Made by a program: the position numbers and the translations under genes
Assembly: GCA_020720045.1 (NCBI GenBank)
Contig: DYPH01000058.1
Location: 1-35,031 of the forward strand
DNA from: Sorangium cellulosum
GTDB lineage: Bacteria; Myxococcota_A; Polyangia; Polyangiales; Polyangiaceae
Direction: 5' to 3'
DNA length: 35,031 nucleotides
The notes under the pieces: model-generated
The model's input: only the letters and a program-made list of their open reading frames with translations
Database searches by the model: none
Told to the model about the DNA's origin: nothing
Shown here: positions 7,320 through 34,781 of the stretch, piece after piece
Layout: each line of letters begins with the position of its first letter
How positions within the stretch are numbered: position 1 is the first letter of the stretch

Positions 7320-10300
7320 TTATTCGGCAGCCGGTGCGGCGTCGGACTGCCCCTCGCGGGAATGCACGGGGACGACGCGGCCGTCCTCGGTCTTCTTCCC
7401 GAGGCGGACCATTCCCTTCGGCAGTTCTTTGTTCGTGGTGCGGGTCCGTGCCGCCTCCCACGCGGCGACTTTCTCGCGAAGGTCGACAATTTGCTGCTCG
7501 AGGGCGGAATCACGTTTGTTCGTCGTCGCGAGCTGATCGCGCTTCAGCGCAAGAAGATCGAGGCGCTTCTGGTCGATGCGGAAGGCGAGTTCGTTCTCCC
7601 GGGAGCGGGCGTCGGCGAGGCGCTCTTCGTGGAGATTCAGCGCATGCGCGTACGTCTTCACGCGGATCTTGATGCTTCCGCTCGGTTTGTTTGCGTCGAT
7701 GTCGTGGAGCGCCGCGTAGGGCGTCTTCGACGTCTCGATGATGCTGTCGATGAGGCCGTAGGTCGGTGCATCGTGGCCGCACTTGAAGCTGGAAAGGTCG
7801 AGAACGACCACGTTCGGGTGGTGGGCTGCGAAGTTGGCCGCCCAGACCTTCTGCGCACTGTTGACCGAGTAGTTCTCCGGCCAAACGTGATTGAGCTCCA
7901 GCGGCGACTGCCCGTTTGCGATCTCTTCCTTGTAGTACCGATTGAGGTACTCGAGGTCCTTCGGGAGCGAGCGAATCGAGAGGATGGGGTACCCACGTAC
8001 CTGAAACTCCTCGGGAATCCCGTGATTCAGCCCCGGGTCCGAGTGGTAGGGGCGGCCGAGAAGGAGAATCGCTACGCGATCTTCGGCTTCGACGGTCTCT
8101 AGAATCGCGCGCCCCTTGTTCTGGATATCCTGGTCAAAAATGCGCTGGGCTTTCCAGGCTTCTCGGCAGGCGAAGTCGTTTTCGTCTTCCGTGATTCCAA
8201 GGCGGTCCTTGAAGCATTCGAACAGTCGGTGAGCCATGTAGGTCGGCTCGACGAAGCTCAATGCGGGATCCAAGTATTCGATCCCACGCATCGCGAAGAA
8301 GTCACTCTCCTTCGTGAAGGCCGCCTTCATGACCTCCGGTGCCCCCGCAACGATGGGGCAGCTCGCGTTATCCATCGTGTCTTTCACGAAGGAATCGACG
8401 TGGGTCAGAATCGGGAAGAAGATGAAATTGAGCTTCTTCTTCTCCGTGTGGTGATGGAAAAGGAGGTTGTGGACGTGCGCCTGCGCGACCTTCGAGGGGT
8501 AGCAGGGGTCGATTGAGCCGTACTTTCCGCCCTCCACCCAAAGTTCTTCGGTGGTCGCGTCGGAGAACACGACGTTCTGCTTCGGAACGCCGAGCGCCTC
8601 CAAGTAGGTCCGGAACCAGGGGCCCGTCGAATACATGTTGAGGACGCGCGGGATGCCGATGCGGATCTTCTTGCGCTTCTGCCAAGCCTCCTTGGGGCTG
8701 CGCTGGAAGGGGCGCGTGACCGGAACGCGTCGCATGCCGAGGAGGCCCTTACGAACTTCCAGGTCCTTCACGGGCGACCCATGCTCGGGCATCGGCGCGG
8801 CGTCGTAGAAGTGCATGAAGGCCCGCCTCGCCTCGTAGTCGACGAGGTTCGGATATTCTTGGGCGGTCTTCTTGCGGTCGGCGACGAGTTCGAGCATCGC
8901 CTCCTTCGACTCAACGGTCCCTTTCTCGCAGGAGAAACCGGCAATGTAGCGGCTCTTGCGTCCGTCGGGGGTCTTCGTGTCGATGAAGGTACGCTTGCAC
9001 TCGTTCGGGCAGAAGTGGCAGACGGTCTCTTCGTCGTTCTTCGTCGTGTATTCGAGATTGATCGCCGCTTCGAGACCGATGAACGTGGACGTCCCGCGGC
9101 GTTTGACCACGCGGAGCGTCTCCATGGCCGCGCCGATGGCCCCAGCCTCACCGGTGTGGGGATGGACGAAGACTTCCGCCTCGGGCACGCGCTCTTTAAT
9201 GTAATCAACCTGGGCCTTTACGGCCGCGAGATTGTACTGGGTGCCGCCCTGAAGGACGAACTTCTTCCCGAGGGCCGCCATGCGCGGAATCTGCACGACA
9301 TACTGCCAGACGTTCTTCGGCAACACTTGCGCGAGGCCGGCGAGCATTTCCTCTTTCGAGAAGCCCTCTTTCTGGAAGTTGACGCGATCGGTGTCGAGGA
9401 ACACCGCGCAGCCGTAGGAGAACTTCGGTGCGAGTTCCGCCTGGAAGGCGACGTCGGCAAACTCGGTAACCGGGACACCAAAGGAATCGGCGGTTGCCTG
9501 CAGAAGCATGCCGTTCCCGGCGCTGCAGCTGTTGGAAAGTCGGAAGTTCTGGATGTCACCGTTCTTGATGAACAGAACCTTGATGTCCTGGCCGCCGATG
9601 TCGCAAATGACGTCGACATCGCCGAAGAAGTGAACCGCGCTCATCATGTGAGCGACCGTCTCGACGACGTTCACATCGCTCTTCACGCACTCTTCGAGGA
9701 CGTCGGCCGCGTAGCCGGTCGCTCCGAAGCCTTTGATGACGAGGGAGGCCCCCTGCGCCGTCACGAAGCCCTTGAGTTGCTCCAGAAGTTCCTTCGTGTC
9801 TTGAATCGGATTCCCCTTGGAAAGCTGGTAGGCTTTCGCCAAGATCTTCCCCGATTCGTAATCGACAAGAACGGCTTTTGAGGAGGTTGAGCCACCGTCG
9901 AGGCCGATGACCGCTTCGACGGTTTGACCTGGGAGGAACCGGGACGACTCAAACTTCGGAATCTTGTAGGCTTCGCGGAACTTGCCAAGTTCGTCGGAGG
10001 TCGCCGCGAGCGGCGGGCCTGCCGTCTCTCCGAGGCGGGCTTTGCGCCCCGTTGTGATGTACTCGCGAAGCTTCGCGAGGTCCTCGAGCCACCCGATGTG
10101 GCTCTCCTCGTGAAGGCCGTAAAATACGGCCCCCTGGGCGGCATAAAGGTGAGCATTCTCGGGAACAAAGACGAGGTCCTCGATCGGCTGATCCTTCGGC
10201 CAATCGAAGCCGCGCTCGTTCCAGATTTGCGGAATTCGAAGGCGCCAGCAGTCCTGAAGGAAGGGGAGGTACGTATTCGGACCGCCAAGCAGGAGGACCC

Positions 10301-10973
10301 GCGGCTTCAGCGTTCCGCCGCGTGTCAGAACCGAAAGATTCTGCATGACGATGGCATCGGCGAGCGAACAGAGGACCTCCGTCGCCGGGATGCCGCTCTT
10401 GATCAAATTGACGATGTCCGTCTCGGCGAACACTCCGCATTTCGCGGCGATGTGGTGGAGCTTTGACGCGTCGAAACGGAGGGTCGTAACCATCTCCGGC
10501 GGTGCATTCACTTTCAGGAAGCACTTGTCGATCGTGGCGCCGGTGCCGCTCGCACACTTGTCGTTCATCGACGCGACGGCGGTGCGCATGCCGGTCTTTT
10601 CGTCGATCTTGAACATGATGATCTTGGCGTCTTGACCGCCAAGCTCAATCACGGATCCGACGTCAGGATGATGGTGCTCGACGGCAAGCGTGACCGCGTT
10701 TACCTCCTGTACGAACTTGCCGCCCGTCGAACCGGCAAGCGGCGCAGACCCGGAACCGGTCAGAAAAATACGGAAGTCGGCGCGGGTTTTCGTGGGGAAC
10801 GCCGCGAGAATCTGCTCCAAGAGCTCGAGGACCATCTCGGGCTGCTTCGTGTGGTGTCGCTGGTAGTCGCTCCAGAGGACCGCTTTGGTGGCCGGATCGA
10901 GGACGACCGCTTTTACGGTCGTGCTGCCGACGTCCATACCGATGGCGAGAAAGTCACGCGAAGATTCGTTCAT
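7320..10973 (-). CDS. Double BadF/BadG/HgdC-type CoA-dehydratase activase with DUF2229 and HgdB-like C-terminal region
   Basis: A 1217-residue ATP-driven electron-transfer protein. Two ASKHA activase domains lie in tandem. Domain 1 (about 8-290) has GMDVGSTTVKAVVLD, LGGQDAKIIM, C140 (DKCASGTG) and C179 (AKCGVFAETD). Domain 2 (about 354-625) has GLDGGSTSSKAVLVD, DIGGQDIKVLF, C483 (NSCSAGNG) and C522 (GCAVFLDTDR). In stand-alone activases two such Cys per monomer bridge one 4Fe-4S cluster in a homodimer; here both pairs are present in one chain. Next come CHFCPNECKR (652-661), a DUF2229 region (about 768-990, RIGIPRVLNMYSTGPWFRTY), HgdB-like sequence to about 1090, and a C-terminal coiled coil (about 1113-1175). 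ATG 10973 follows GGAG; upstream in-frame sequence to 11162 looks non-coding. The HgdB-like gene downstream is the expected partner. Confidence 0.9.
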   Translation of the reverse strand: MNESSRDFLAIGMDVGSTTVKAVVLDPATKAVLWSDYQRHHTKQPEMVLELLEQILAAFPTKTRADFRIFLTGSGSAPLAGSTGGKFVQEVNAVTLAVEHHHPDVGSVIELGGQDAKIIMFKIDEKTGMRTAVASMNDKCASGTGATIDKCFLKVNAPPEMVTTLRFDASKLHHIAAKCGVFAETDIVNLIKSGIPATEVLCSLADAIVMQNLSVLTRGGTLKPRVLLLGGPNTYLPFLQDCWRLRIPQIWNERGFDWPKDQPIEDLVFVPENAHLYAAQGAVFYGLHEESHIGWLEDLAKLREYITTGRKARLGETAGPPLAATSDELGKFREAYKIPKFESSRFLPGQTVEAVIGLDGGSTSSKAVLVDYESGKILAKAYQLSKGNPIQDTKELLEQLKGFVTAQGASLVIKGFGATGYAADVLEECVKSDVNVVETVAHMMSAVHFFGDVDVICDIGGQDIKVLFIKNGDIQNFRLSNSCSAGNGMLLQATADSFGVPVTEFADVAFQAELAPKFSYGCAVFLDTDRVNFQKEGFSKEEMLAGLAQVLPKNVWQYVVQIPRMAALGKKFVLQGGTQYNLAAVKAQVDYIKERVPEAEVFVHPHTGEAGAIGAAMETLRVVKRRGTSTFIGLEAAINLEYTTKNDEETVCHFCPNECKRTFIDTKTPDGRKSRYIAGFSCEKGTVESKEAMLELVADRKKTAQEYPNLVDYEARRAFMHFYDAAPMPEHGSPVKDLEVRKGLLGMRRVPVTRPFQRSPKEAWQKRKKIRIGIPRVLNMYSTGPWFRTYLEALGVPKQNVVFSDATTEELWVEGGKYGSIDPCYPSKVAQAHVHNLLFHHHTEKKKLNFIFFPILTHVDSFVKDTMDNASCPIVAGAPEVMKAAFTKESDFFAMRGIEYLDPALSFVEPTYMAHRLFECFKDRLGITEDENDFACREAWKAQRIFDQDIQNKGRAILETVEAEDRVAILLLGRPYHSDPGLNHGIPEEFQVRGYPILSIRSLPKDLEYLNRYYKEEIANGQSPLELNHVWPENYSVNSAQKVWAANFAAHHPNVVVLDLSSFKCGHDAPTYGLIDSIIETSKTPYAALHDIDANKPSGSIKIRVKTYAHALNLHEERLADARSRENELAFRIDQKRLDLLALKRDQLATTNKRDSALEQQIVDLREKVAAWEAARTRTTNKELPKGMVRLGKKTEDGRVVPVHSREGQSDAAPAAE

Positions 10974-11371
10974 CAGATGCTCCGGGCGCACCCTGGAAAG
11001 CGGGCCGGCGGTGAATTCGTGGGGGACGCCCCGAGGACCGACGTGCATCGCTTGCGCAGGTGTGCGGAATTTGCGCGATGGCGCCGGCAGGCTAACGCCA
11101 AACGGTCTTCGTGGAGGGACAATTTTCGTTCCGGGGCGAGGACGGTTTCCAAAGATGACCAATTTCCGACAGAGCGCGTGAAAACCACACGGACGGTAGG
11201 GGGCCTTTCCCCTTCCACGCGTCCTCCCTCTTCCAGTACGATAAGAGGTTCCGCCATGTCTCTTCCGGTCGGGTCATGCATCATCGCCCGCCCCCCAACG
11301 TCCGCTGCGGCCCATCGTGGCGCCTTCCTGAAGGAATTCGGAGGCGCAACGCGAGGTCATCGAAGGTTCCC
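10974..11371. other. Divergent intergenic region, no gene seen
   Basis: About 400 bases between the minus-strand activase and the plus-strand small-protein gene. Open frames cross it on both strands, but their translations are Arg/Pro-rich and unlike their neighbours, as expected from base composition. Promoters for both directions must lie here, but I see no convincing -35/-10 pair. No strong long hairpin was found. Confidence 0.5.
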
Positions 11372-17744: not shown

Positions 17745-19244
17745 ATGCGCCTCCGGATTGCTCTTCCGTTCGCCGTTCTCGCCCTGATCACCGCCTCGTC
17801 CGCCTTCGCCGGCGACGAGCATTCGGAGGGGCGCCAACGCGACGATCGAAGTGTAACCGATGGAAATTCAAAGGGCGGGAAGGGGTTTGCCTACGGCGAA
17901 TTCCGGATCCTCCCCCTTGCCGATCTGCGCCTCCGCGGCGAGTTCCGCACCGTCGCCGGTGAGCCCGGCGGAACGACGACCCCGGTCGGCGGCGTCCTCG
18001 CACGGACGCGCGTTGGCGTTGAAGTTCGCCGCGGAGACACCGTGCGCGCGGTCCTCTCCGTGCAAGATGCACGGGTCCTCGGCGGCGCGCCGACGGGACT
18101 CCTAAGCACGCCGACGAGCCCCTACGCCACCGCCCCCTTCGAAGCGTTCATCGAGGTCAAGGAGCGGCGAACGGGGGCCCGTCCGTCGGTGTCGACCAGC
18201 GACTTTACGGGCCGCGGCGACGCCGGGGACGGCGGGCCCCTTTCAACCGGCGCGTTCTTGCCGGCGACGACCGCCGAGTACGAGACCGACGGCGCCTATC
18301 TTCGCATCGGTCGCCAGCGGCTGGTCGTCGCCAATGGGCTCCTCGTCGGCGCAAATGACTGGTCGCCGACGGGGCGGTCCCTCGATGCAGTCCGCGGCGA
18401 AATTCCCTGGGGTCGCCTACGCTTTGGGGCGTTTGCGGCGCTCACGTCGGCACCCGGCACCTTTGGCCTCGGCGTCGACGCCGCAAGCGCGAGCCGCGCG
18501 TCGAACCTCGAAGGGGTGACCGTTCGCTGGGCGCCGACGGAGCTCTTTCGCGTGGAAGCCTTCGGGCTCCACTCCAAGACCTACGCACGCCCCGGAGGCA
18601 GCGCTGGGGATGCGCAGCTCGTGACGGCCGGCGCCCGCCTTCATGGCGAAAAGAGCGGCTTTCAATGGCAGTTGATGGGCGCTTACCAGGGCGGGACTCG
18701 CACCTTCGCTGCTAGTGATGCCGACGTAGGTGCTTATGCTTTCTATGCTTCTGCGCAGAAACGTGTCCCAGAACTCCGATTGAATCCGACGTTTCGTCTT
18801 GGCGGCGCGTGGGCGAGCGGAAACCGGGCCGGGTCCTCGCGCGTGGGTGCATTTGATCCGCTCCTGCCGGACGTCCAGACCTTTGGCCTCCTCGACGCAG
18901 CGGCGCTCACGAACCTGGTCGCTGCCCACGGGGCCGTCACCGTGGAGCCGGGCGTCCCGACGCGCCTCTCGCTCCGCTACCAATTCGCGGCGCCGGAGCG
19001 GAAATACGGTGGGGAAACAGACGCTTACCTCACCCCGGCGACGAACGTTAGCCGCGTCTTCGCCTCCCGCCACGAGGTCGATCTCACCTTCGCGTACACG
19101 CCGATCCGCGACCTCGAACTCCTCGCCGGCTACGGCATCCTCGCCGGGGTCGCCCGGGACCGCGCGAGCGGCGCAACGAGCGGCTTTTCCATGAAAGATC
19201 CGGCGCAGCTCGCTTTCCTGTCGGCGCGCTTCCTTCTCCATTGA
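17745..19244 (+). CDS. Alginate-export-family outer-membrane beta-barrel
   Basis: A 499-residue outer-membrane protein with signal peptide MRLRIALPFAVLALITASSAFA. The body is a succession of amphipathic strands with Tyr/Phe/Leu-rich ends, such as RVGVEVRRGDTVRAVLSVQD, YLRIGRQRLVVANGLLVGAND, VTVRWAPTELFRVEAFGLHS and HEVDLTFAYTPIRDLELLAG, and it ends FLSARFLLH with an aromatic/hydrophobic terminus. The stretch from IGRQRLVVANGLL to RSLDAVRGEI resembles the alginate-export barrel (AlgE-like) family. Most proteins in that family are general porins rather than alginate exporters, and no alginate biosynthesis genes are nearby. It follows the membrane-protein gene by 12 bases. Confidence 0.75.
   Translation: MRLRIALPFAVLALITASSAFAGDEHSEGRQRDDRSVTDGNSKGGKGFAYGEFRILPLADLRLRGEFRTVAGEPGGTTTPVGGVLARTRVGVEVRRGDTVRAVLSVQDARVLGGAPTGLLSTPTSPYATAPFEAFIEVKERRTGARPSVSTSDFTGRGDAGDGGPLSTGAFLPATTAEYETDGAYLRIGRQRLVVANGLLVGANDWSPTGRSLDAVRGEIPWGRLRFGAFAALTSAPGTFGLGVDAASASRASNLEGVTVRWAPTELFRVEAFGLHSKTYARPGGSAGDAQLVTAGARLHGEKSGFQWQLMGAYQGGTRTFAASDADVGAYAFYASAQKRVPELRLNPTFRLGGAWASGNRAGSSRVGAFDPLLPDVQTFGLLDAAALTNLVAAHGAVTVEPGVPTRLSLRYQFAAPERKYGGETDAYLTPATNVSRVFASRHEVDLTFAYTPIRDLELLAGYGILAGVARDRASGATSGFSMKDPAQLAFLSARFLLH
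18060..18072. repeat. Interspersed palindrome GTGCA-N3-TGCAC, copy 4
   Basis: A perfect copy with spacer AGA inside the outer-membrane barrel gene. In frame it reads GTG CAA GAT GCA C, giving V-Q-D-A, in the same codon phase as the other copies. Confidence 0.85.
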
Positions 19245-24692: not shown

Positions 24693-25397
24693 TCACGGCT
24701 TGACGATCGTCGTGCCGGGCGGCGGCGTGAACTTGAAGAGTTCGGCGGAGACCGGCTCGTTCACGCGCGGCTTCGAGAAGTCGAAGCGATTTCGGTTCCC
24801 TTGCCCGTCGAGGATGAGCACGCGGCGGACCTGCCAGGTGTCCTTGTCGACGTAGAAGAAGACCGTCTTGTAGGCGGGCGACGCCTGCTTCGGCGTCCCG
24901 GCGAGGACGACGCCCCCCTTGAAGCCCATCGCGTCGCCGTCAAACTGCTGAAAGGTGAAGCTATCGGTGAGCTTGCCGGAGCCGGTGAGGAACGAGAGGG
25001 CGGCCGGGTACTGGGACTTGTCGACGACCTGCTCGTACATTTGCGAGCTGCCCTTTTCGTAGACCTTCAGCGTCGTGCCGTCCGAAACGACCCGATTTCC
25101 TTCCGGTTCCGCGTACTCGAAGTACATCTTGCCCGGCTTCGAGAAGGTCACCACGCCCTTGGACGAGGTCTTCTTGTTGTGGAGCTTTGCGTTGAATTCT
25201 TGAGTAAAATCGGCCTTGAAGGTCGTCGTCTTGTCGTAGAACGCTTGAACCTTGGCGACCGAGTCGGCGGCCACGTTCGCCGGGGCGGCGGTTGGCGAGC
25301 CGTCGGCGCTGGCCGGAGCTGCGTGGATCGCGGCGAAGCCCTGCGTGGCAGCGACGGTGGCGACGAAGACGGCGGCGAAGAAGCGGTTTCGCGACAT
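24693..25397 (-). CDS. lolA: Outer-membrane lipoprotein carrier LolA
   Basis: A 234-residue periplasmic chaperone that carries lipoproteins from the inner-membrane LolCDE complex to the outer membrane. The signal peptide is MSRNRFFAAVFVATVAATQG... ending near HAAPASA. The mature part has the LolA pattern: VQAFYDKTTTFKADFTQEF, SSKGVVTFSKPGKMYFEYAE, VVSDGTTLKVYEKGSSQMYE, ALSFLTGSGKL and VFFYVDKDTWQVRRVLILDG, ending NRFDFSKPRVNEPVSAELFK. GGAG precedes the ATG. It fits the many lipoproteins in this window. It lies 123 bases after ruvC. Confidence 0.93.
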   Translation of the reverse strand: MSRNRFFAAVFVATVAATQGFAAIHAAPASADGSPTAAPANVAADSVAKVQAFYDKTTTFKADFTQEFNAKLHNKKTSSKGVVTFSKPGKMYFEYAEPEGNRVVSDGTTLKVYEKGSSQMYEQVVDKSQYPAALSFLTGSGKLTDSFTFQQFDGDAMGFKGGVVLAGTPKQASPAYKTVFFYVDKDTWQVRRVLILDGQGNRNRFDFSKPRVNEPVSAELFKFTPPPGTTIVKP

Positions 25398-25520
25398 GGA
25401 AGGCTCCGAGGAGTGGGGGAGGGAAGGCTCGCGCGCCGTGGCGCTTAGCGAGTGGGGCGTCTGACGGGAAGGGGCGAGGGACGATACACGCCCATTTGTA
25501 AGGAAATGCCTCCCGTGATC

Positions 25521-26129
25521 TTACGGGCGTGCCGCCTGTTTCGCGAGGGCGGCTCGGATGGCTGCGGCGACGCGCTTCGCACCGTCATCGGCCGGTTTTT
25601 TTTGAACTCGCGTCGCTGCCGTCGTCCCGTAGGAGGCCTTTTGCAGGTGCGTCAGTGCGACGGCGAGGGCGTCGGAGGCATCGAGCGGGGGCGCTTCCGC
25701 AAGTCCAAGGATGCTCTGCACAAAGCGTGCAACTTGCACTTTGCTGGCCGCCCCTTCGCCGGAAACGGTTGCTTTTACACGGGACGGCGGATATTCGCCG
25801 ACACGAAGCGCCCCTCGTGTGCAGACGAGAAGAGCGACGCCGCGGGCATGACCGAGCTTCGCCGCCGCCGATGGATCTTTCGCGTAGATCAGGCTCTCAA
25901 TCGCCGCTTCCTGCGGGGAAAACCGCGTGAGGATGTCGACGAGCGCCGCTTCAATCGCGACGAGGCGTTCACCAAGCGGGGCCTTCGCGACCGGGTGAAT
26001 CACACCGTGGGCGACGTGGACCGGGCGATTCCGCACGCGACGGATGATCCCCCAGCCAAAATGCAAGGTGCCCGGGTCGATCCCGAGCACCGTGCACCCT
26101 TCGCGGGTCGCCGAAGCGCCTGCGACCAT
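25521..26129 (-). CDS. ruvC: Holliday-junction resolvase RuvC
   Basis: RuvC cuts Holliday junctions made during homologous recombination. The 202-residue protein has the four acidic active-site positions: D in VLGIDPGTL, E in AAIESLIYAKD, and two D in LDASDALAVALTH. Family markers KLGHARGVALL and VSGEGAASKVQVARFV are present. The C-terminal 35 residues are a basic tail longer than usual. The ATG overlaps the yebC stop by one base (TGATG on the coding strand), so translation is coupled. ruvA and ruvB, often nearby, are not in this window. The gene carries one copy of the interspersed palindrome. Confidence 0.94.
   Translation of the reverse strand: MVAGASATREGCTVLGIDPGTLHFGWGIIRRVRNRPVHVAHGVIHPVAKAPLGERLVAIEAALVDILTRFSPQEAAIESLIYAKDPSAAAKLGHARGVALLVCTRGALRVGEYPPSRVKATVSGEGAASKVQVARFVQSILGLAEAPPLDASDALAVALTHLQKASYGTTAATRVQKKPADDGAKRVAAAIRAALAKQAARP
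25727..25739. repeat. Interspersed palindrome GTGCA-N3-TGCAC, copy 5
   Basis: A perfect copy with spacer ACT inside ruvC. In the gene it reads GTG CAA GTT GCA C, giving V-Q-V-A, in the same codon phase as the other copies. Confidence 0.85.
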
Positions 26130-26878
26130 CAGCCGCCGAGCTTGGCGAGGTCTTCTTCGGAGATGTCGAAGTCGGCGTAGACGTTCTGGACGTCGTCGTT
26201 GTCGTCGAGGATTTCGGCAAGGTTCATCGCCACTTCCGCGTCGCGGCCCGTGAGGACCTTCTTCATCTTCGGGATGTAGGCGGTCGACGAACTCACGACG
26301 GCGCTCTTGGCCGCTTCGAGCGCTTCAAGGACGCCGTTCAGCGCTTCCGGCGAGCTCGAGACGTTCCACTCTTCCCCCTCGTCGGTGTAGTCGTCGGCGC
26401 CACCGCCGAGGGCCACTTCCATGAGCTGGTCTTCGGTGACGGCGCTCTTGGCGAGCACGACGATGCCGCGACGGTCGAAGTTCCAACCGGCGGTGCCCGA
26501 CGTGCCGAGGACGCCGTTGTTTTTGTCAAAGATCTTGCGAAGTTCGGCGACGGTACGGTTGCGGTTGTCGGTCATTCCTTCGACGAGGAAGAGGGAGCCG
26601 CCGGGGCCGGTGCCTTCGTAGAGGACCTCTTCGTAGGCCTCGCCTTCGAGTTCACCGGTGCCGCGCTTGGCGGCGCGGGTGATGGTGTCGTTCGGCATCG
26701 ACTGGGCTTTTGCGTCGGCGACCGCCTTGCGGAGGCGCGCGTTTGCGCTGACGTCACCGCCGCCCATGCGGGCTGCAACGGTGATTTCTTTGATCAACTT
26801 GGTGAAGAGCTTGCCGCGCTTTGCGTCGGTCGCGCCCTTCTTGTGTTTGATCGTTGCCCATTTGGAGTGGCCGCTCAT
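26129..26878 (-). CDS. yebC: YebC/PmpR-family regulator
   Basis: A 249-residue YebC-family protein. Members act as DNA-binding regulators or as translation factors at poly-proline stretches. The hallmark N-terminus MSGHSKWATIKHKKGATDAK is intact, followed by RGKLFTKLIKEITVAARMGG, then IFDKNNGVLGTSGTAGWNFD, and the acidic C-terminal domain (DYTDEGEEWNVSSSPEALNG, DDNDDVQNVYADFDIS). AAGGA precedes the ATG. The yebC-ruvC order is common in bacteria, and the one-base overlap with ruvC supports one transcript. Confidence 0.96.
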   Translation of the reverse strand: MSGHSKWATIKHKKGATDAKRGKLFTKLIKEITVAARMGGGDVSANARLRKAVADAKAQSMPNDTITRAAKRGTGELEGEAYEEVLYEGTGPGGSLFLVEGMTDNRNRTVAELRKIFDKNNGVLGTSGTAGWNFDRRGIVVLAKSAVTEDQLMEVALGGGADDYTDEGEEWNVSSSPEALNGVLEALEAAKSAVVSSSTAYIPKMKKVLTGRDAEVAMNLAEILDDNDDVQNVYADFDISEEDLAKLGG

Positions 26879-26977: not shown

Positions 26978-29900
26978 TCACTTCTTCGCGGGCGCCTTCG
27001 GAGTCGTCACGCGGGCGCCGGCGAGGAAGCCGTCGTCGACGCGCACGATCGATGCGCCAAATGCAGCGAATTTGGCGGCAGGGACCGTCCCCGACTCAAG
27101 GACGAGGGAGAAGTCCTCCTCGATGCGCGGGCCGTCGACCTTGAGCGTCCGCTTTCCGTGGAGGAGCGTCGCGTCTTCGGCGAGGGGGCCCGGCAGCGAT
27201 TCGACCTTGGAACCGTCCGGAAAATCGAGCTTTCGATGGAGGTGGTACAGGGAGCCGGCCCGGATGGCGAAGTCGGATTCCCGCTTCCCCTGGCTCGTGT
27301 AGGCGGCGCGGAGCGTGCCCGAGTAGGGGCGCGGATAGACGCCGTGGACGGGGTCGATACCGGGGACGAGCAGCGTCGAAACGCCATTCTTTTCTTCGAC
27401 TTGGGCGAAGCCACCGATGGTTACGTTCGCCCGGAGCGCGACCTGCCAGCTCCCTTCGCTTGACGAGAGGCTCACGTCTTCGACGGTCGCGAAGGGGAGC
27501 CAGCCGAGGACGACGCCGCGGAGGGTCTTTTGGCGTTCGTCGCCAACGACGCGCACAAACGCATCGGCGAGGCCCTGCGCCGCGCGGCCGCGGAGGACGA
27601 CGGTGACCTCCCCCTTGGCGTCGCCTTTTGCGTCGACGGCGAGGCGGATGTCGATCTCGTCGCCGTCGTTGTCGTTCGCGGTGACCGGGACGCTGGCGAT
27701 CGTCCCGTCCTTCGCAAAGAGCGCCAAACGCCCCTTCAATTCCGGGGAGATACGGCCGGGCGGGAGCGGCGGACCTTGCACGTCGGCGTCGACGAGGACC
27801 GGTTCCGTCTCGGCGCCGCCGGGCGTTTTCGGCACGGCGACGAGCAAGAGCGGATGGGTGAAGCGCCCCGAGCGGACCGGGACGTCGGCGCGGGCGCTCC
27901 AGGGCGTCGGCTCCGCAACGAGCAATTCGGAACGAATTCCGAGTTCGCGTAGAGCGCGATGGACGAGCCAGGTGCGGCTCCCTTCCCGGGACGCGAGGAA
28001 GGAGCGGGCGCTTGCCGGGCGCGAGCCGTCGGGACCGTCGTCGGAGTCGGAGAGGTAGGCGGCGTTCGGCTGGCGGAGTGCCTTGCCGACGGCGGTGACG
28101 ACGGCGTCGACGAGCTCTCGGGACGGCGGCAGCACCTTGCCATCACGGGTTGCCGCTTGGCGGGCCCAGGCGGCGACCTCGGGATCGGCGTCGTCGAGGG
28201 CCACGAGCTTGTCGCGGAGGCCGCGGGCGGCGGCATCCCAGGTCGCGGTGGAGAAGCTGACGGCGACGTCCTGGTCCATCCGAGGGACCCCTTCCTCCTG
28301 GCGGCGGATCGGGGTGTTTTGCACCGTGTAGACGCGGAGCAAGCGCCCGTCTTTCTTGGTCTCTACCGGCTTCCCAAGGAGCGGGTGGGCGAGGAAGACC
28401 CCCTTGATCGACTCGGGGAGGTCGACGCGGATCTCGCCGGCAACGACGCGGGTCCGCTCGGGGAGGAGGTCGGCCCCTTCGAAGCCGAGGGTGCCGTTCG
28501 CGTCGGGGAGCGCCCAGCTTTCGTAGAGCGCCTCCACGTAGTCGCCCGGCTCCAGCTGGGAGAGATCGGCGTGGTTTTGGGCCGCTTGCGGCGTCTTTTC
28601 CGGTTCGAGGATGCGGCCGTCCTGCTTGTGGACGCGGCGTCGGAGCACTTTGAAGCGCTCACGGCCGAGGGCGTAGGCGGGGGGGGCCTCCGCGTTCTCT
28701 TCGACGTCGGTGGTGCCGTCGACGCGGCGCAGGTCGAAGGTCGTCAGATGAAGGACGCCACTCTGCGAAATTTCATAGCTTTCGTCGTGGCGGAGGACGA
28801 CCGTCCCCGCGCCCGGGAACGCCTTTGCGGCGAGGTCCTTCGCGACGAGCTTTTCGGCGACGCCGTCAAAGGGGAGCGGGGACGAGCCGGACGCGACGCG
28901 CAGGGCGGCGGCGAGGTTCATCGGCGAGTCGCTCGCCTTGCGTGCATTCTGCAGGAAGGTGTCTCGGCCGGCCCCCGGCGTCGCGGCGGCGTCGAGACCG
29001 GGCAGGAAGGCGAGCGTTCGGTCTCCCGGGGCGAGCTTCGCCGCTTCGGCATCGCGGCGGGCGGTGTCGCCGTCGCGCATCGCGTCGCGGAGGCGGTCGC
29101 CACGAACGACGGATTCATCGCCATACAATTTTGCCAAGCGATCCAGCTCTTTGGAGGCCGCTGCGAGGTCCCCACGGTAGAGGGAAGCCTCCCGGCAGCT
29201 CCGTGTATCCTGCATGTGCCCCGGCTCCGAACTGCAGCGGAACGCGAGGTTGGCAGCGGCATCCCGGGGCACAAGCAGGGAGGCGACATCGACCTCCATC
29301 GCCGTCTTCGGGAAGGTCGCGTGGGCGTCGGTGACGAGCTTCGCCGCCTCATCGGGCAGCGGATCGCGGCCGAAAAGACCCGCCTTGAAGGCGACCACGA
29401 CCGCGTGCGCCTTCGGGGTCAGGTCCTTCTCGTGCTTGGCGAGGTCGTTCAGCGCGAAGAAGCGCGCCTCCGCCGGGGCCCGCCGTGCCCCTTCGAGCTT
29501 CGCGTGGCCGAGGACCGCCTCCCAGGCGTAGGGCCAGGCGACGAGCGCCTTCTCGTGGAGTGCTCGAATTCGCTCAGCTTTTTGAATGTTGTTGAGGTCG
29601 GGAGCGCCAGCCAACGCACGGGCGCGGAGGAGGAGGAGCGTCGGATCGTCGTCGTGGCCAAACGCGAGCGCGCTGAGGCGCGACTCGGCGGCAGCCCGGT
29701 AACCGGCGGCGAGCTCCCCGGCGGCGAGGAGCGCCTCTTCTTTTGCCGAGTGGGCGGCGGCGGGGACGGCGACGGCGACCGTCTTGAAGCTCCCCGTGGC
29801 GGTGTCGCCCGGCTTCGGGGCGGTCGTCGGGAGCGGTTCGCCGCTGCCGTTGACGATGGCGAGCGTTGCAGTGCCGGTGCCGCCGACGCGGAGGGCGAGG

Positions 29901-30805
29901 CGTACCGTCCCCGTCACCCCTTCCAAGGTCACGCGCTGGGTTGTAAGCCCATCGCTTTCCAGGTAATTTCGGGAAAGGACCGTCTTCCCTTGTGCGAGGA
30001 GGCGGGCGGGGCCGTCGACGCGAAGAATCAGCGCGAGGGTGCCGTCGCTCGGCGCTTCGACGTCGATGATCGCGTCGCGGACGCCGGGCGCTGCGCTCGC
30101 TGCGTGAAGGGGAATCGCGGTGTTCCGGGCGGCGACGGCGACCGGGGGCGAGACAATGCCCAACGGATCCGAGATCGTAGCTGGGGCCGGGCTGCCGGCG
30201 GTGTCCCAGGGCGTCGGCGCGAAGATGCCGCTCGGAACTCCGCCCTGGTGGGGGGGCGTAACGAGGGCGTCGCGTACAAAGCCGGCGCGGTTCCGCCAGA
30301 GGGCGGCGTCGACGGCGTCGCCGCGGGCGCTCGCCAGCACGAACAGCGCGTGGGCGAGGGTGGGGCGGGTAAATGGGTCAAACCCTGCTTTTTCCCAGGT
30401 CGCGCGCAAGCGAGCGACCGCCGGGCCGCCGTCCCCCTTCGGGTCGAAGGTCGCGGCGAATTTGGGTGCACGATACAGGAGTGCCGCGTGGGGGGTCGCG
30501 TCGGCGATGGCGTCGGGCGTCTCAAAAAGGAGTGCGTCGAGGGCGGCGCCGATGAGCGGAATCCGGCGATCGCCGAGGTCGGCCAGCGCCGCCTTTTCCA
30601 CGAGGCTCAGGTAGGCTTCGGCGGCACCGTCGTCGTCGCCGCGCGCTTCGACGTGGAAGGCATCCGTGTAGGCGGCCCCCGCATCGAACTTCGGCGCGAG
30701 CGGTGCCTGGGCGGGGCCGCAGGCGAGGAGCGCGAGGAGGGGCGCGAGGCCGAGGCCGCCGAGGCGAACCGTGCGCGAAGGGCTGAAAAGAATAGGCATT
30801 TTCAC
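26978..30805 (-). CDS. Giant DUF3857/transglutaminase-type lipoprotein lacking the catalytic Cys
   Basis: A 1275-residue exported lipoprotein with lipobox LLAC (C29). An N-terminal helical TPR-like region (to about 620) is followed by a DUF3857-like segment (about 660-840: YEISQSGVLHLTTFDLRRVD, RFKVLRRRVHKQDGRI, LEPGDYVEALYESW) and a transglutaminase-like domain. At the expected catalytic site (about residue 941) the sequence is REGSRTWLVHRALRELGI, lacking the Cys of the neighbour's REGDCDDKA; a downstream His (GRFTHPLLL) and Asp (PVLVDADVQG) remain. The C-terminal 250 residues are strand-rich. It is probably a non-enzymatic paralogue of the gene upstream. The start is GTG at 30805, overlapping the previous stop in GTGA; an ATG two codons later is an alternative. 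Confidence 0.8.
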   Translation of the reverse strand: MKMPILFSPSRTVRLGGLGLAPLLALLACGPAQAPLAPKFDAGAAYTDAFHVEARGDDDGAAEAYLSLVEKAALADLGDRRIPLIGAALDALLFETPDAIADATPHAALLYRAPKFAATFDPKGDGGPAVARLRATWEKAGFDPFTRPTLAHALFVLASARGDAVDAALWRNRAGFVRDALVTPPHQGGVPSGIFAPTPWDTAGSPAPATISDPLGIVSPPVAVAARNTAIPLHAASAAPGVRDAIIDVEAPSDGTLALILRVDGPARLLAQGKTVLSRNYLESDGLTTQRVTLEGVTGTVRLALRVGGTGTATLAIVNGSGEPLPTTAPKPGDTATGSFKTVAVAVPAAAHSAKEEALLAAGELAAGYRAAAESRLSALAFGHDDDPTLLLLRARALAGAPDLNNIQKAERIRALHEKALVAWPYAWEAVLGHAKLEGARRAPAEARFFALNDLAKHEKDLTPKAHAVVVAFKAGLFGRDPLPDEAAKLVTDAHATFPKTAMEVDVASLLVPRDAAANLAFRCSSEPGHMQDTRSCREASLYRGDLAAASKELDRLAKLYGDESVVRGDRLRDAMRDGDTARRDAEAAKLAPGDRTLAFLPGLDAAATPGAGRDTFLQNARKASDSPMNLAAALRVASGSSPLPFDGVAEKLVAKDLAAKAFPGAGTVVLRHDESYEISQSGVLHLTTFDLRRVDGTTDVEENAEAPPAYALGRERFKVLRRRVHKQDGRILEPEKTPQAAQNHADLSQLEPGDYVEALYESWALPDANGTLGFEGADLLPERTRVVAGEIRVDLPESIKGVFLAHPLLGKPVETKKDGRLLRVYTVQNTPIRRQEEGVPRMDQDVAVSFSTATWDAAARGLRDKLVALDDADPEVAAWARQAATRDGKVLPPSRELVDAVVTAVGKALRQPNAAYLSDSDDGPDGSRPASARSFLASREGSRTWLVHRALRELGIRSELLVAEPTPWSARADVPVRSGRFTHPLLLVAVPKTPGGAETEPVLVDADVQGPPLPPGRISPELKGRLALFAKDGTIASVPVTANDNDGDEIDIRLAVDAKGDAKGEVTVVLRGRAAQGLADAFVRVVGDERQKTLRGVVLGWLPFATVEDVSLSSSEGSWQVALRANVTIGGFAQVEEKNGVSTLLVPGIDPVHGVYPRPYSGTLRAAYTSQGKRESDFAIRAGSLYHLHRKLDFPDGSKVESLPGPLAEDATLLHGKRTLKVDGPRIEEDFSLVLESGTVPAAKFAAFGASIVRVDDGFLAGARVTTPKAPAKK
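28942..28954. repeat. Near-match to the interspersed palindrome
   Basis: GTGCATTCTGCAG differs from GTGCA-N3-TGCAC at one end base. In the giant lipoprotein gene it reads CTG CAG AAT GCA C (L-Q-N-A), in the same phase as the full copies. A more decayed version, GTGTATCCTGCAT, lies at 29203-29215 in the same gene, reading M-Q-D-T. Confidence 0.7.
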
Positions 30806-33800
30806 TTTGCTGCTCCCGTGGTCGCCTTCTTGCCGATCCCTGCGCCGTGCTTGGCCGGCGGCGGGAGCTTCTTCGTCGGCTCGGCGGCCGGTTTTTCCGG
30901 GGCCGGCGCCTCCGCGTGGGCCACGTCCAGGCGTAGCGACTTGTGCATGAGGGCGTCGGTCTCGAGGAGGAACTTGCGGAAGGCGGGGTACTTGGCGACG
31001 GGGACTTTGTTGGCGTCAAAGATCAGCGTGCGCTTGACGGTGATCTTGTCCCCTTGCTGGCTAAATGTCAGCGAAGACTTGCCAAATTCACCCCCCTCGA
31101 CGGTCCCCCCCTTCGGGAGGACGCCCCACTTGCCCCCCTTCGGCGCGTCGACGACGAAGGTGATGGTGCGGTGGCTCGGCGCGAGTTGGGAGGGGAGTTC
31201 GACGGGGAGGAGGCGGCTCGGCGACGGCGCGAACGTCGACGCCAAGGTGGCGCTCGCCGAGAGCGGGAGCACGAGGGCGTCCCCCTCTTTGCGGCCCCAG
31301 GCTTCCGAGAACGCCGTGTAGGAAACCTCGGATTTTCCTCCGGAAAGGTCCCCTTGGAAGCCGACGCCCTTGTCGACGGAGAGCTGGGGGAAGTAGCCGC
31401 CGATCAGGTTCTGCTCGACGTACTGGGAGCGCCCCTCTTCTTCGCGGAGCGCCGTCCGGAGGAAGAAGGCCGAGTCGCCCATGTGGAGCTCTTTCCCAGC
31501 GATTTTCGCGGCGCCGTCCCGGTTGACGGCGATGTTCCAGACGGAGTCGGAGCCGTGGTCGGCCGGCAGCGCGTTCGGAAGTTCAACGATTTCGGCGGGG
31601 CCGTCCATGCGGAGGGCGACGGCGCGCGCGTCCATCGAGGGGATCGGTCCGAGGCGCGATTGCGGCGAGGTCGCGTCGAGGTAGCGGCCGCCGTTGGGGC
31701 CGGGGAGGAAGGCGATGCCGTGGTCGAACTGGGGGACGGCGGCGCCGGGCGCCTTGAGGACGCTCGGCATGTTCGTCTGCCGCGTCTGTACGAGGACTTC
31801 CTGGGCTTCGATGCCAACCGCTTTCAGGAGGGAAATCAACAAGATCGCCTTGTCGTCGCAGTCTCCTTCCCGGCGGGCGAGGAGCTGCTGGGGGCGGTTC
31901 GGCAACCACCACTCGCCGCTCACGTAGTTCACGTAGCGGATGTCGTCGGCGACGAACTCAAACAGGGCTTTGAGTTTTTCGTCTTTGGTCGTTTTCCCCT
32001 TCGTCAATTCGGCGGCGATGCGCTTCACCTGCTCGTCGGGCTCCGTGAAGCCCTTGACCGCCTCCGCGTACCACTTCCGGAAGGCGTCCCAGTTTTTGAA
32101 CGTCGAGCCGACGACGAGCGGCACCACCTCGGAGAGCGGCGGCGCAAACGGTTCGTCGGGGACGACGACCGGCGTGTCCCACACGAGGTCGACCACATGC
32201 TCGCCGTCTTCGTCCCGTTCCGTCCGCTTCATGGCGCCGGCGTGGAGGACGTCGACGTGGATCTGCTTGTCTTTCGGGGAGGTTACGATGACGCGGTTGT
32301 AGAGGAGCGGCCGCGTCGTCGTGGCGCCTGCGTAGTCGAAGAAGGTGAACGGCGCGTCGCCGCGGCCGCCGACCGCCTGGCTCGTCCAGCTCTTGATGAC
32401 GACTTCGGTCACGTCGCCGGGGGCGAGCTCGGGCCAGCGGATACGAGGGCGACGGCCGTCGTTAAACTCCTCGACCGGGTAGGCAATGCCGCCCCCTTTG
32501 CGATGGACGCGGGCGCGGACGATCTCGAAATAATCCCCTTCGAGGGGGAGGTTTTCGTAGAGTTCGTCCTCGGTTTGCGGGGCGATGACGACCTCTTTCC
32601 CGTATTGAATGAGCTGGGAAACGCGGCCGTCCGGCTCCATGTGGACCGAGCGGAGCCAGTAGATTTCCCGCTCTTCCTCGGTGATCGGCTGCCCCTCGGG
32701 GACGCCGCGGCGCCGGGCCAGGAGCACGTCGCTCGCCACGAGATATTTGTCGTTTTCGGTCTTTTCCGGCGTCTTCGACGGGGCCCCCGGCGGGTTGGCC
32801 CGGAAGGCGAGTTCGGCGCGTACTTTTCCGTCGCCGGGATCGAGCTCGCGGGCGCGGCGGAGGGCCGCTTCGACGGTCGCCTTGCCGGCGGTCCCCTCGG
32901 TGGCGGCGGCGGCGCGCGACAATTGGGTGAATACTTCCGCGCGGTTCGGCGCGAAGAGCGCCATCGTCTTCGCGGTCGCGTAGGCGGTGTCCCAGTCGCC
33001 GGCGGAGGCGGCGAGCCGGATGACGCCGACCCCTTCGTCGGCCCCGTCGAGGCGCATCATCGCCTCTTCGGCCGCCTTCGCGCGGGCGGCCCGATCGCTC
33101 TGGAGGGCCGCTTCGACGGCGAAGGAGCCCCGGAAGCCGCGGCGCTCGTACTCGGTCGTTACTTCTTGGAAAACGCGGCGATCGAGCGTCCGCGATTGGC
33201 CGAGGAGCTCGCCGAGGAGCGCCATCGGGGCGCGGGCGCGGTCGGCCCGGAACCGCTCGACGAGCTTGCGGAAGGCGGCGACGCGGATCGGTTCCATCCC
33301 CGATTGGCCGTCGATCATCGCAGCGACGAGGAGCGCCTCGGCGTCGTTGGCGGCGTCGATGCCGGAGGATTTCCGCTCGATCATCGCCCAGTCGAAGAGG
33401 CCGGCGCCGATGTGTTCCGCGAGCTTCCGGCGGCCGACGAAGCGCTCCGCTTCCTTGTCCCCTTTGGTGACGGCGGCGCGGCGGGCGACCTCGAAGAAAC
33501 CGCTACGATTTGCGCCATTTGGCGATACCCACGCGGCAAAGGCGAGCGTGTCTGGGGCGACCGTCGCGGCCGCCTGCGTGCCGTGGAAAATCTGATCGAG
33601 GAGACCCGGCGCGCGGGGGCTTCGGAGGTCGTCGATGCCGCCGAGGGTGCGCAGCGTCGCGCGGGCGAGGAGCGCTTCGACGTCGTGCGTCTCTGCTTTT
33701 TCCGTGCCGGTCGCCCGTTCGACGACCGTCGGAATTCGGGTGATCGTCGCGGCAGCGTCCGGGCGGGCACCGCCGAGATCGAAGCTCGTCGCGAGCGACT

Positions 33801-34692
33801 TCGGAGCGCCATTTTCGTCGGTAAATCGAACACGTACGCGGCCCGCGTCCATGATCGCCCCCGTGCAGACCTTCATGGCGAGGAGGTGGGGGCCGGCGTT
33901 TGCCGTCACCTTGGCGGCGAGGCGATCGAAGCGGGCGGCGCCGTGGGCGACTTCGCTGATGCCGATCTCTTTTCCATCAAAGGTTGCGCGGAGTTGGCCG
34001 GCGGAGGCGACGCGAACCACGAAGGGGGCGCCGTCGGTCGTGACCGTCGTGGCGAGGTAGCTACAGCTCTCCTTGCGCGGGGCGACGAAGACGTCGAGGG
34101 GGACGCCGCGGGCGAGGGCATAGCTCGCCGGGACCGGGCGCGGGTAGACGTCGACGGAGCCCCAGGCGTAGCGGCCCCGGAGGTTGGCGAAGTTTTCGTC
34201 TTCGGGCCCCTCCTTCGCCTTGATACCGCCGCCGGTATCTCGGAAAGGTCCAATCAAAACAAGTTTTTGCGCGATGCCGTCGGCGGCGTTCGCAGCGGCG
34301 GCTGCCGTCGAGCCGTCGGTCCCGGAGGCGCCGCGGGCGAGGAGCCGAGCTTCCGTGCGGACGTCGGGGTCGGTCGCGCGCTCGGCGACGGCCAGCAGCG
34401 CCTTTTCCGCGGCGCCAAAGCTCGCGCGGTCGGAGAGGGCCGAAATCGTCGAAAGGGCCGCGTAGGCGCGGAACGTCGCCTCGCCATCAGACCTTGCCGC
34501 CGCCGACGTCGCGGAAATCGCCTTCGCGGCGAGCGCCTCGATCATCGCATCGGGGGTCTCGGCGACCCAACGTCCGTTCGCCGCCGACCCTGTGGTCGTC
34601 GACGGGGTTGGGCCGGCGGTCGCCACGACGGCGGGGGCGCCAAGAAGAACCGGGAGAAGCGCAGGAAAGAGGGCGAGTTGCCGAGATTTCAC
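30802..34692 (-). CDS. Giant DUF3857/transglutaminase-type exported protein with intact triad
   Basis: A 1296-residue exported protein. The signal peptide is VKSRQLALFPALLPVLLGAP ending near VVATA. The first about 640 residues are helical with TPR-like spacing. A DUF3857 region follows (about 690-850: EIYWLRSVHMEPDGRVSQLI, DYFEIVRARVHRKGGGI, LAPGDVTEVVIKSW), then a transglutaminase-like domain with REGDCDDKAILLISLLKAVG (C945), the His in VPQFDHGIAFL and the Asp in GRYLDATSP. These match the Cys-His-Asp triad of transglutaminase-fold proteins, which in bacteria are mostly proteases or amidases. The C-terminal part is strand-rich with a Pro/Lys tail. The GTG at 34692 has AAAGG upstream; an ATG at 34764 would add a non-signal extension. 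Its paralogue follows with a 4-base overlap. Confidence 0.83.
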   Translation of the reverse strand: MKSRQLALFPALLPVLLGAPAVVATAGPTPSTTTGSAANGRWVAETPDAMIEALAAKAISATSAAARSDGEATFRAYAALSTISALSDRASFGAAEKALLAVAERATDPDVRTEARLLARGASGTDGSTAAAAANAADGIAQKLVLIGPFRDTGGGIKAKEGPEDENFANLRGRYAWGSVDVYPRPVPASYALARGVPLDVFVAPRKESCSYLATTVTTDGAPFVVRVASAGQLRATFDGKEIGISEVAHGAARFDRLAAKVTANAGPHLLAMKVCTGAIMDAGRVRVRFTDENGAPKSLATSFDLGGARPDAAATITRIPTVVERATGTEKAETHDVEALLARATLRTLGGIDDLRSPRAPGLLDQIFHGTQAAATVAPDTLAFAAWVSPNGANRSGFFEVARRAAVTKGDKEAERFVGRRKLAEHIGAGLFDWAMIERKSSGIDAANDAEALLVAAMIDGQSGMEPIRVAAFRKLVERFRADRARAPMALLGELLGQSRTLDRRVFQEVTTEYERRGFRGSFAVEAALQSDRAARAKAAEEAMMRLDGADEGVGVIRLAASAGDWDTAYATAKTMALFAPNRAEVFTQLSRAAAATEGTAGKATVEAALRRARELDPGDGKVRAELAFRANPPGAPSKTPEKTENDKYLVASDVLLARRRGVPEGQPITEEEREIYWLRSVHMEPDGRVSQLIQYGKEVVIAPQTEDELYENLPLEGDYFEIVRARVHRKGGGIAYPVEEFNDGRRPRIRWPELAPGDVTEVVIKSWTSQAVGGRGDAPFTFFDYAGATTTRPLLYNRVIVTSPKDKQIHVDVLHAGAMKRTERDEDGEHVVDLVWDTPVVVPDEPFAPPLSEVVPLVVGSTFKNWDAFRKWYAEAVKGFTEPDEQVKRIAAELTKGKTTKDEKLKALFEFVADDIRYVNYVSGEWWLPNRPQQLLARREGDCDDKAILLISLLKAVGIEAQEVLVQTRQTNMPSVLKAPGAAVPQFDHGIAFLPGPNGGRYLDATSPQSRLGPIPSMDARAVALRMDGPAEIVELPNALPADHGSDSVWNIAVNRDGAAKIAGKELHMGDSAFFLRTALREEEGRSQYVEQNLIGGYFPQLSVDKGVGFQGDLSGGKSEVSYTAFSEAWGRKEGDALVLPLSASATLASTFAPSPSRLLPVELPSQLAPSHRTITFVVDAPKGGKWGVLPKGGTVEGGEFGKSSLTFSQQGDKITVKRTLIFDANKVPVAKYPAFRKFLLETDALMHKSLRLDVAHAEAPAPEKPAAEPTKKLPPPAKHGAGIGKKATTGAAK

Positions 34693-34781
34693 GCGGGGCC
34701 TTTCGTCGTCGGGTTGCCCACAGCGCCCGCGCAACGCCGGCGATCGAAGGGGGGCACCCCGCACGGCGACAGGAATAGCGA

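Follow-up and report, generated by a model that had tools for sequence, protein, structure and literature searches.

A stretch of 35,031 nucleotides from Sorangium cellulosum (assembly GCA_020720045.1, contig DYPH01000058.1, positions 1 to 35,031; hereafter the window) carries on its minus strand two overlapping genes for large exported proteins, here named P1 and P2. Very probably, P1 is an exported enzyme of the DUF3857-type transglutaminase-like group that acts on amide bonds, and P2, a lipoprotein of P1-like architecture that lacks the catalytic cysteine, very probably has no enzyme activity of the transglutaminase type. It is proposed, with a probability of roughly 60%, that the two make up a two-subunit periplasmic system in which P2, held by a lipid anchor and without catalysis of its own, positions P1 or gates it. 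In eukaryotic signalling, pseudoenzymes that act as partners are a familiar theme. If the proposal is true, the bacterial envelope holds a phylum-wide, strictly asymmetric enzyme-pseudoenzyme pair whose dead member serves as the membrane anchor, and the pair would be a clean, genetically tractable model for the control of a live copy by a dead one. No paper on the function of the pair was found in the open-access literature, and the available part of the single DUF3857 paper found mentions a DUF3857 gene merely as a neighbour of lolA (PMC6341742).

The two genes and their active sites

P1 (30802..34692, minus strand) has 1296 residues when read from the GTG at 34692; starting instead at the in-frame GTG at 34764 would lengthen it to 1320. 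It has an ordinary signal peptide, and its assignment as a putative enzyme is based on the open reading frame, the Transglut_core match, the signal region and the fold match to 3kd4 described below. P2 (26978..30805, minus strand; 1275 residues) was assigned from its open reading frame and from a model of its C-terminal half. The stop of P1 and the start of P2 have four bases, GTGA, in common (30802..30805, minus strand). The signal region ends in VVATA-G in P1 and in ALLAC-G in P2, where Cys29 of LLAC-G (30719..30721, minus strand) is the lipobox cysteine. Both minus-strand frames bear out the two large exported proteins, of 1296 and 1275 residues, that had been read from the DNA in the preliminary description. 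On the plus strand, an open frame of 1120 codons (27959-31321) lies antisense to both genes; most likely it merely shadows their G+C-rich coding strand.

The Transglut_core match of P1 covers residues 891-972 (31777..32022, minus strand) with 42.6 bits against a curated cut-off of 23, and the catalytic residues are Cys945 in GDCDDK (31858..31860), His991 (31720..31722) and Asp1006 (31675..31677), all on the minus strand. The corresponding pseudo-core of P2 spans about residues 856-1029 (27719..28240, minus strand), its approximate limits being drawn from VIA-align ranges (factor XIII, XPC, protein 4.2 and others) and from a conserved stretch. Where P1 has GDCDDK, P2 is three residues shorter and reads Gly942-Ser943-Arg944 (27974..27982); the segment from this glycine to the GI that closes the helix counts 19 residues in P1 against 16 in P2. 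His984 (27854..27856) and Asp1006 (27788..27790) are kept in P2, likewise on the minus strand. The earlier reading of a complete upstream site, and of a downstream site with a shortened Cys region beside a retained His and Asp, is therefore correct.

A cysteine supplied from elsewhere in the pocket, which the preliminary description had named as fatal to its idea of a broken copy, was looked for in P2. The only cysteines are at positions 29 (lipobox), 524 and 537, none lies in the C-terminal part (639-1275), and no alignment column has Cys in more than 2 of 22 P2 rows, so that such a replacement is ruled out. In the predicted models the catalytic helix begins with Cys in P1 (model residue 315) and with Arg in P2 (model residue 306), in both cases five residues past the end of the preceding helix. 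By this register, the Arg of P2 would take the slot of the Cys of P1.

P1 and P2 are distant paralogues, as indicated by BLASTP (E 9e-6, 23% identity over 581 C-terminal columns) and confirmed by profile-profile comparison (E 3.7e-20). Pfam returned for the two proteins only Transglut_core in P1 (8e-11), plus a sub-threshold DUF3858; P2 matched no family at E up to 1 and so falls outside Transglut_core. A common architecture of helical repeats, DUF3857 and a transglutaminase-like domain had been claimed for both. This claim stands as far as homology, fold and relatives are concerned: models of the C-terminal halves (predicted local distance difference test, pLDDT, 88.8 for P1 and 87.8 for P2) match 3kd4 over its full length in Foldseek (E 2.9e-27 and 1.5e-25), giving both the DUF3857-transglutaminase-DUF3858 arrangement, and relatives of both kinds across the phylum carry TPR and DUF3857 above cut-off. 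It does not stand at the level of Pfam calls in P1 and P2 themselves, where neither PF12969 (DUF3857) nor the repeats were called. The genome of the window contains no DUF3857 match over threshold and no second copy of P1.

Conservation of the asymmetry among relatives

The comparison was extended to relatives, presumably all Myxococcota, including a more distant tandem set of genes of 1200-1300 codons with about 26-31% identity to P1, named P3a (upstream member) and P3b (downstream member). In two genomes, P3a was found to carry GDCKDK, TPR, DUF3857 and Transglut_core, and P3b to carry TPR and DUF3857 without Transglut_core. The full Cys-His-Asp set is present in 24/24 P1 and 80/80 P3a rows, and hence each of the three catalytic residues in all 104 enzyme-type rows. 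The Cys is absent from all 98 dead-type rows (P2 0/22, P3b 0/76). Further hits, partly the same genes, gave Cys in 0/30 P2-type, 0/20 P3b-type and 20/20 P3a-type sequences; the main row counts exclude them, apart from the 30 P2 rows, which were tallied separately. From one alignment an alternative frame (L029) and a sequence without core (L024) were dropped; alignment A1 was made without L024, L028, L029, L030, L031, L005, L032 and L033 (partial genes or near-duplicates), and alignment A2 without L034 (near-duplicate) and two short L039 pieces.

The residues that remain in the dead site differ in their constancy. Ser-Arg and Asp1006 occur in 22/22 and 30/30 P2 rows, and His984 in 20/22 and 23/30, being replaced by Tyr and Lys in the former set, by Tyr and Gln in the latter, and by Ala in one row of another alignment. 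In P3b, the His is found in 6/76 rows and the Asp in 34/76, and the dead-site helix often starts with Asn, Asp or His. The retention of His noted in the window is thus a trend of the P2 branch; it is not invariant, and most of the wider dead family has lost it. A second diagnostic column has Asp in 101/104 live rows and Leu in 22/22 P2 rows.

Within the C-terminal half of P2, 19 of the 44 invariant columns fall inside a 96-residue dead-site stretch (p about 3e-6), the limits of which were drawn after the columns had been seen, and a conserved P2 stretch reads DxDVxGPPLPPGRxSPELRGR. P3b has only 1 of 26 invariant columns in the dead-site stretch, which points to a dead site rebuilt in P2, not one kept throughout.

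A survey of coupled Cys presence and absence had been suggested, with relatives in which both copies carry Cys as the finding that would overturn the idea. For this purpose 60 tandem pairs with 16 family codes were considered, a non-exhaustive set of adjacent matches in the right order from profile-search listings. In all 60 the upstream copy has Cys, His and Asp and the downstream copy is gapped at the Cys, and neither these pairs nor the 98 dead-type rows include a downstream copy with the catalytic Cys. GDCPQA and GDCPAV, which in two dead-type relatives could have been taken for live downstream copies, were both placed by the alignment in the DUF3857 domain, outside the active site. With neither of the two overturning findings obtained, the preliminary idea of an enzyme with a pseudo-enzyme partner is supported.

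This is a large family: among 377 genomes sampled in the phylum, 202 had a DUF3857 match. The genome of the window and its genus mate have P1 and P2 only and no P3a/P3b pair (no DUF3857 match), and several members of the family carry both pairs.

Co-occurrence, gene order and history

Among 59 relatives searched, with P1 scored as present at a close match of 41% identity or more, P1 and P2 occur together in 25, P2 alone in two, P1 alone in none and neither in 32 (Fisher's exact test 1e-14, uncorrected for shared ancestry). In both P2-only genomes (G017 and G031), P2 lies at a contig edge. The two genes are adjacent in 14 of the 25 genomes, 3 and 11 kb apart in two, unlinked in seven and not judgeable in two. 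A start codon at the -4 offset was found in 37 of the 60 phylum-wide pairs, as well as in the window and in three of five other P1-P2 loci tested. The four-base overlap had been taken to imply matched production: the offset does recur, but with P1 and P2 unlinked in 7/25 genomes, co-production would not depend on the overlap. A close-relative scan of genome contigs yielded only two contigs of one near-identical metagenome-assembled genome.

The live/dead asymmetry is old. In a tree of 77 rows with the active-site columns removed, a single branch separates all live from all dead sequences (SH-like approximate likelihood-ratio test 99). Since the tree was made by a quick method, with long-branch warnings and a midpoint root, it is read as a clean split and not as a dated event. 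Profile comparison places P2 nearest to P3b (E 1.6e-41, compared with 4.9e-26 and 3.7e-20 for the live profiles). The simplest history is one ancient loss of the Cys, after which the pair was duplicated or diverged as a pair.

The signals divide in the same way. A hydrophobicity-plus-lipobox scan detected a lipobox in 23/23 P2, 14/16 P3b, 0/20 P1 and 2/20 P3a sequences, in agreement with the lipoprotein and the ordinary signal peptide that had been read in the window; a stricter first pattern gave 9/23, 10/16, 0/20 and 2/20, respectively. By eye, the two P3b sequences missed by the scan show LAAC and LWGC. No P2 row has Asp after the lipobox Cys, and by the Escherichia coli rule its absence fits the outer membrane, in which P2 is probably anchored, as far as this signal can tell.

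When the window is compared with its closest relative, the ratio of nonsynonymous to synonymous substitution rates (dN/dS) comes to 0.034 for P1 and, for P2, to 0.064 in the N-terminal and 0.007 in the C-terminal part. P2 is under purifying selection, which together with the loss of the Cys makes it very likely a pseudoenzyme. Its treatment as a pseudogene was rejected on the basis of dN/dS and conservation.

Comparison with known systems

The only solved structure of the DUF3857-transglutaminase-DUF3858 architecture found here is 3kd4, which is BDI_1141 of Parabacteroides distasonis and is titled a putative protease. It aligns with the C-terminal half of P1 over 479 residues (Z 20.4, root-mean-square deviation (rmsd) 3.7) and with that of P2 over 461 (Z 15.3, rmsd 5.5). 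The available part of one paper places 3KD4 among members of the transglutaminase-like cysteine protease superfamily (PMC4866520). In P. distasonis NZ_OY725779.1 (L235:5923-9478), a 652-residue DUF3857 protein with GVCKD is followed after 13 bases by a protein of 527 residues that is identical to 3kd4 over residues 23-527. Like P2, 3kd4 is therefore the downstream member of a tandem and lacks Cys, His and Asp at the aligned positions. Unlike P2, it has Gly-Thr-Pro at the Cys site without the three-residue deletion and has no lipobox, and it lacks the N-terminal repeat half of both P1 and P2. Its sequence scores 64.9 bits with live profiles and 28.5 with dead ones. The missing deletion and the better live-profile score suggest that its triad was probably lost independently. 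Despite its title, 3kd4 would thus be a non-enzyme, from which no function should be transferred. The Parabacteroides case is one locus; in plasmid searches, several genera yielded single DUF3857 genes and Parabacteroides this one true tandem, and no dead partner adjoins the DUF3857 locus of Aureibacter.

The best solved match of the P1 core after 3kd4 is LapG (4fgq; Z 11.4, rmsd 3.0, 132 residues). LapG-type proteases resemble P1 in being exported and in using Cys-His-Asp, but P1 reaches only 12.6 bits in the LapG (BTLCP) equivalog model, for which the cut-off is 320, and by this model lies outside that family. Among those genes of the window that were scanned, none resembled LapD.

Dead transglutaminase-fold domains kept for binding or scaffolding, according to the part available of a further paper, are those of Rad4/XPC, menin, EPB42 and CC2D2A (PMC10318531). 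P2 matches XPC (Z 9.7), protein 4.2 (Z 9.3) and Rad4 (Z 7.6) in structure. Unlike P2, EPB42, XPC/Rad4, menin and CC2D2A are eukaryotic. To our knowledge, none of the four is a lipoprotein or is encoded as part of an overlapping live-dead pair.

Proposed mechanism and alternative explanations

In the proposed system, P1 would be soluble and do the catalytic work, as a Cys-His-Asp enzyme of transglutaminase fold; judging from this fold, it may cleave an amide bond in a protein or wall substrate or carry out a transfer there. P2 would be tethered by its lipid anchor, probably in the outer membrane, and would most likely keep P1 at the membrane by binding it via the repeat and beta domains common to both. 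The rebuilt dead site, with GSR and DxDVxGPPLPPGRxSPELRGR, may gate P1 by binding P1 itself, a ligand or a strand of substrate. Since a live-plus-dead pair recurs in the relatives examined, P2 is probably a partner and not a broken copy. That P1 is its partner is suggested by co-occurrence without linkage, the conserved asymmetry and the gene order, from which we infer that the two proteins may associate physically; the asymmetry of the lipoprotein signal suggests that P2 is the anchor. Gating is a guess by analogy, prompted by the conserved dead site of P2 and by the scaffolding role of dead relatives described in PMC10318531.

Several observations weigh against this proposal. The dead site of the wider dead family is poorly conserved, as seen in P3b, so that gating through the dead site may hold for P2 alone. 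P1 and P2 are unlinked in seven of 25 genomes, and no neighbouring gene at the loci examined indicates a substrate. Moreover, live and dead sequences both went into the profiles by which the 60 pairs were chosen, and the panel was therefore not blind.

It is unlikely, given the pattern of occurrence, that P2 works independently of P1, as a periplasmic lipoprotein for binding or scaffolding which has no more than ancestry and operon in common with P1 and does not act on it. The unlinked genes in 7/25 genomes would suit such a protein, as would the scaffolding of other complexes by the dead folds of Rad4/XPC, menin and EPB42 (PMC10318531, available part). However, P1 was never found without P2 in the 59 genomes, P2 without P1 was found only in two and there at contig edges, and the live-then-dead order with overlap recurs phylum-wide. 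The pair could also be a substrate-handling duo of an unrelated pathway, for example lipoprotein or outer-membrane quality control with the nearby LolA. YebC adjoins P2 in four examined genomes and LolA is nearby in three, and a DUF3857 gene precedes lolA in Xanthomonas (PMC6341742, available part), but the link is limited to close relatives of the window and the other examined loci have no such neighbour, which makes this reading very unlikely.

A re-equipped P2, in which Ser943 would act as nucleophile with His984 and Asp1006 in a serine enzyme on a transglutaminase fold, is highly improbable. Its attraction lies in the invariant Ser-Arg and Asp, the His present in most P2 rows, and the strong conservation of the dead-site stretch. 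Nevertheless, some relatives have Tyr, Lys, Ala or Gln in place of the His, the helix starts by predicted secondary structure with Arg in P2 where P1 has Cys, and the wider dead family often has Asn, Asp or His there and has mostly lost the His. The chance that P2 is a decaying duplicate of P1 is close to negligible: it has indeed lost its catalytic Cys and evolves faster than P1 (41-43% identity for the best matches within the same family, compared with 51-54% for P1), but dN/dS is far below 1 in both of its parts, distant relatives keep full-length open frames, the P1/P2 split predates the families sampled, and the dead site has an invariant motif of its own.

The lipid-anchored partnership of P1 and P2 may be extended to the phylum. 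In that wider form, given somewhat less than an even chance, Myxococcota would possess an obligate two-subunit machine with a live soluble member and a dead member that is always lipid-anchored; the split would be as old as much of the phylum, the pair would have been duplicated as a pair, and such tandems would have arisen more than once. The last point is suggested by 3kd4, which looks like the dead member of a separate pair in Bacteroidota.

Neighbouring genes

Downstream of P2 lie genes for YebC, RuvC and LolA (24696-26878). Apart from YebC (four genomes) and LolA (three), no conserved neighbour that would indicate a substrate was found at the loci examined. Elsewhere in the window, a protein of 1280 residues (7323-11162) combines a BcrAD_BadFG ATPase with DUF2229 in a fusion of the CoA-enzyme-activase type and is adjoined by a protein without Pfam match (5350-7194). 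A strong Alginate_exp match, of the outer-membrane porin type, is found at 17745-19241 and adjoins a protein of 565 residues to which no Pfam family could be assigned.

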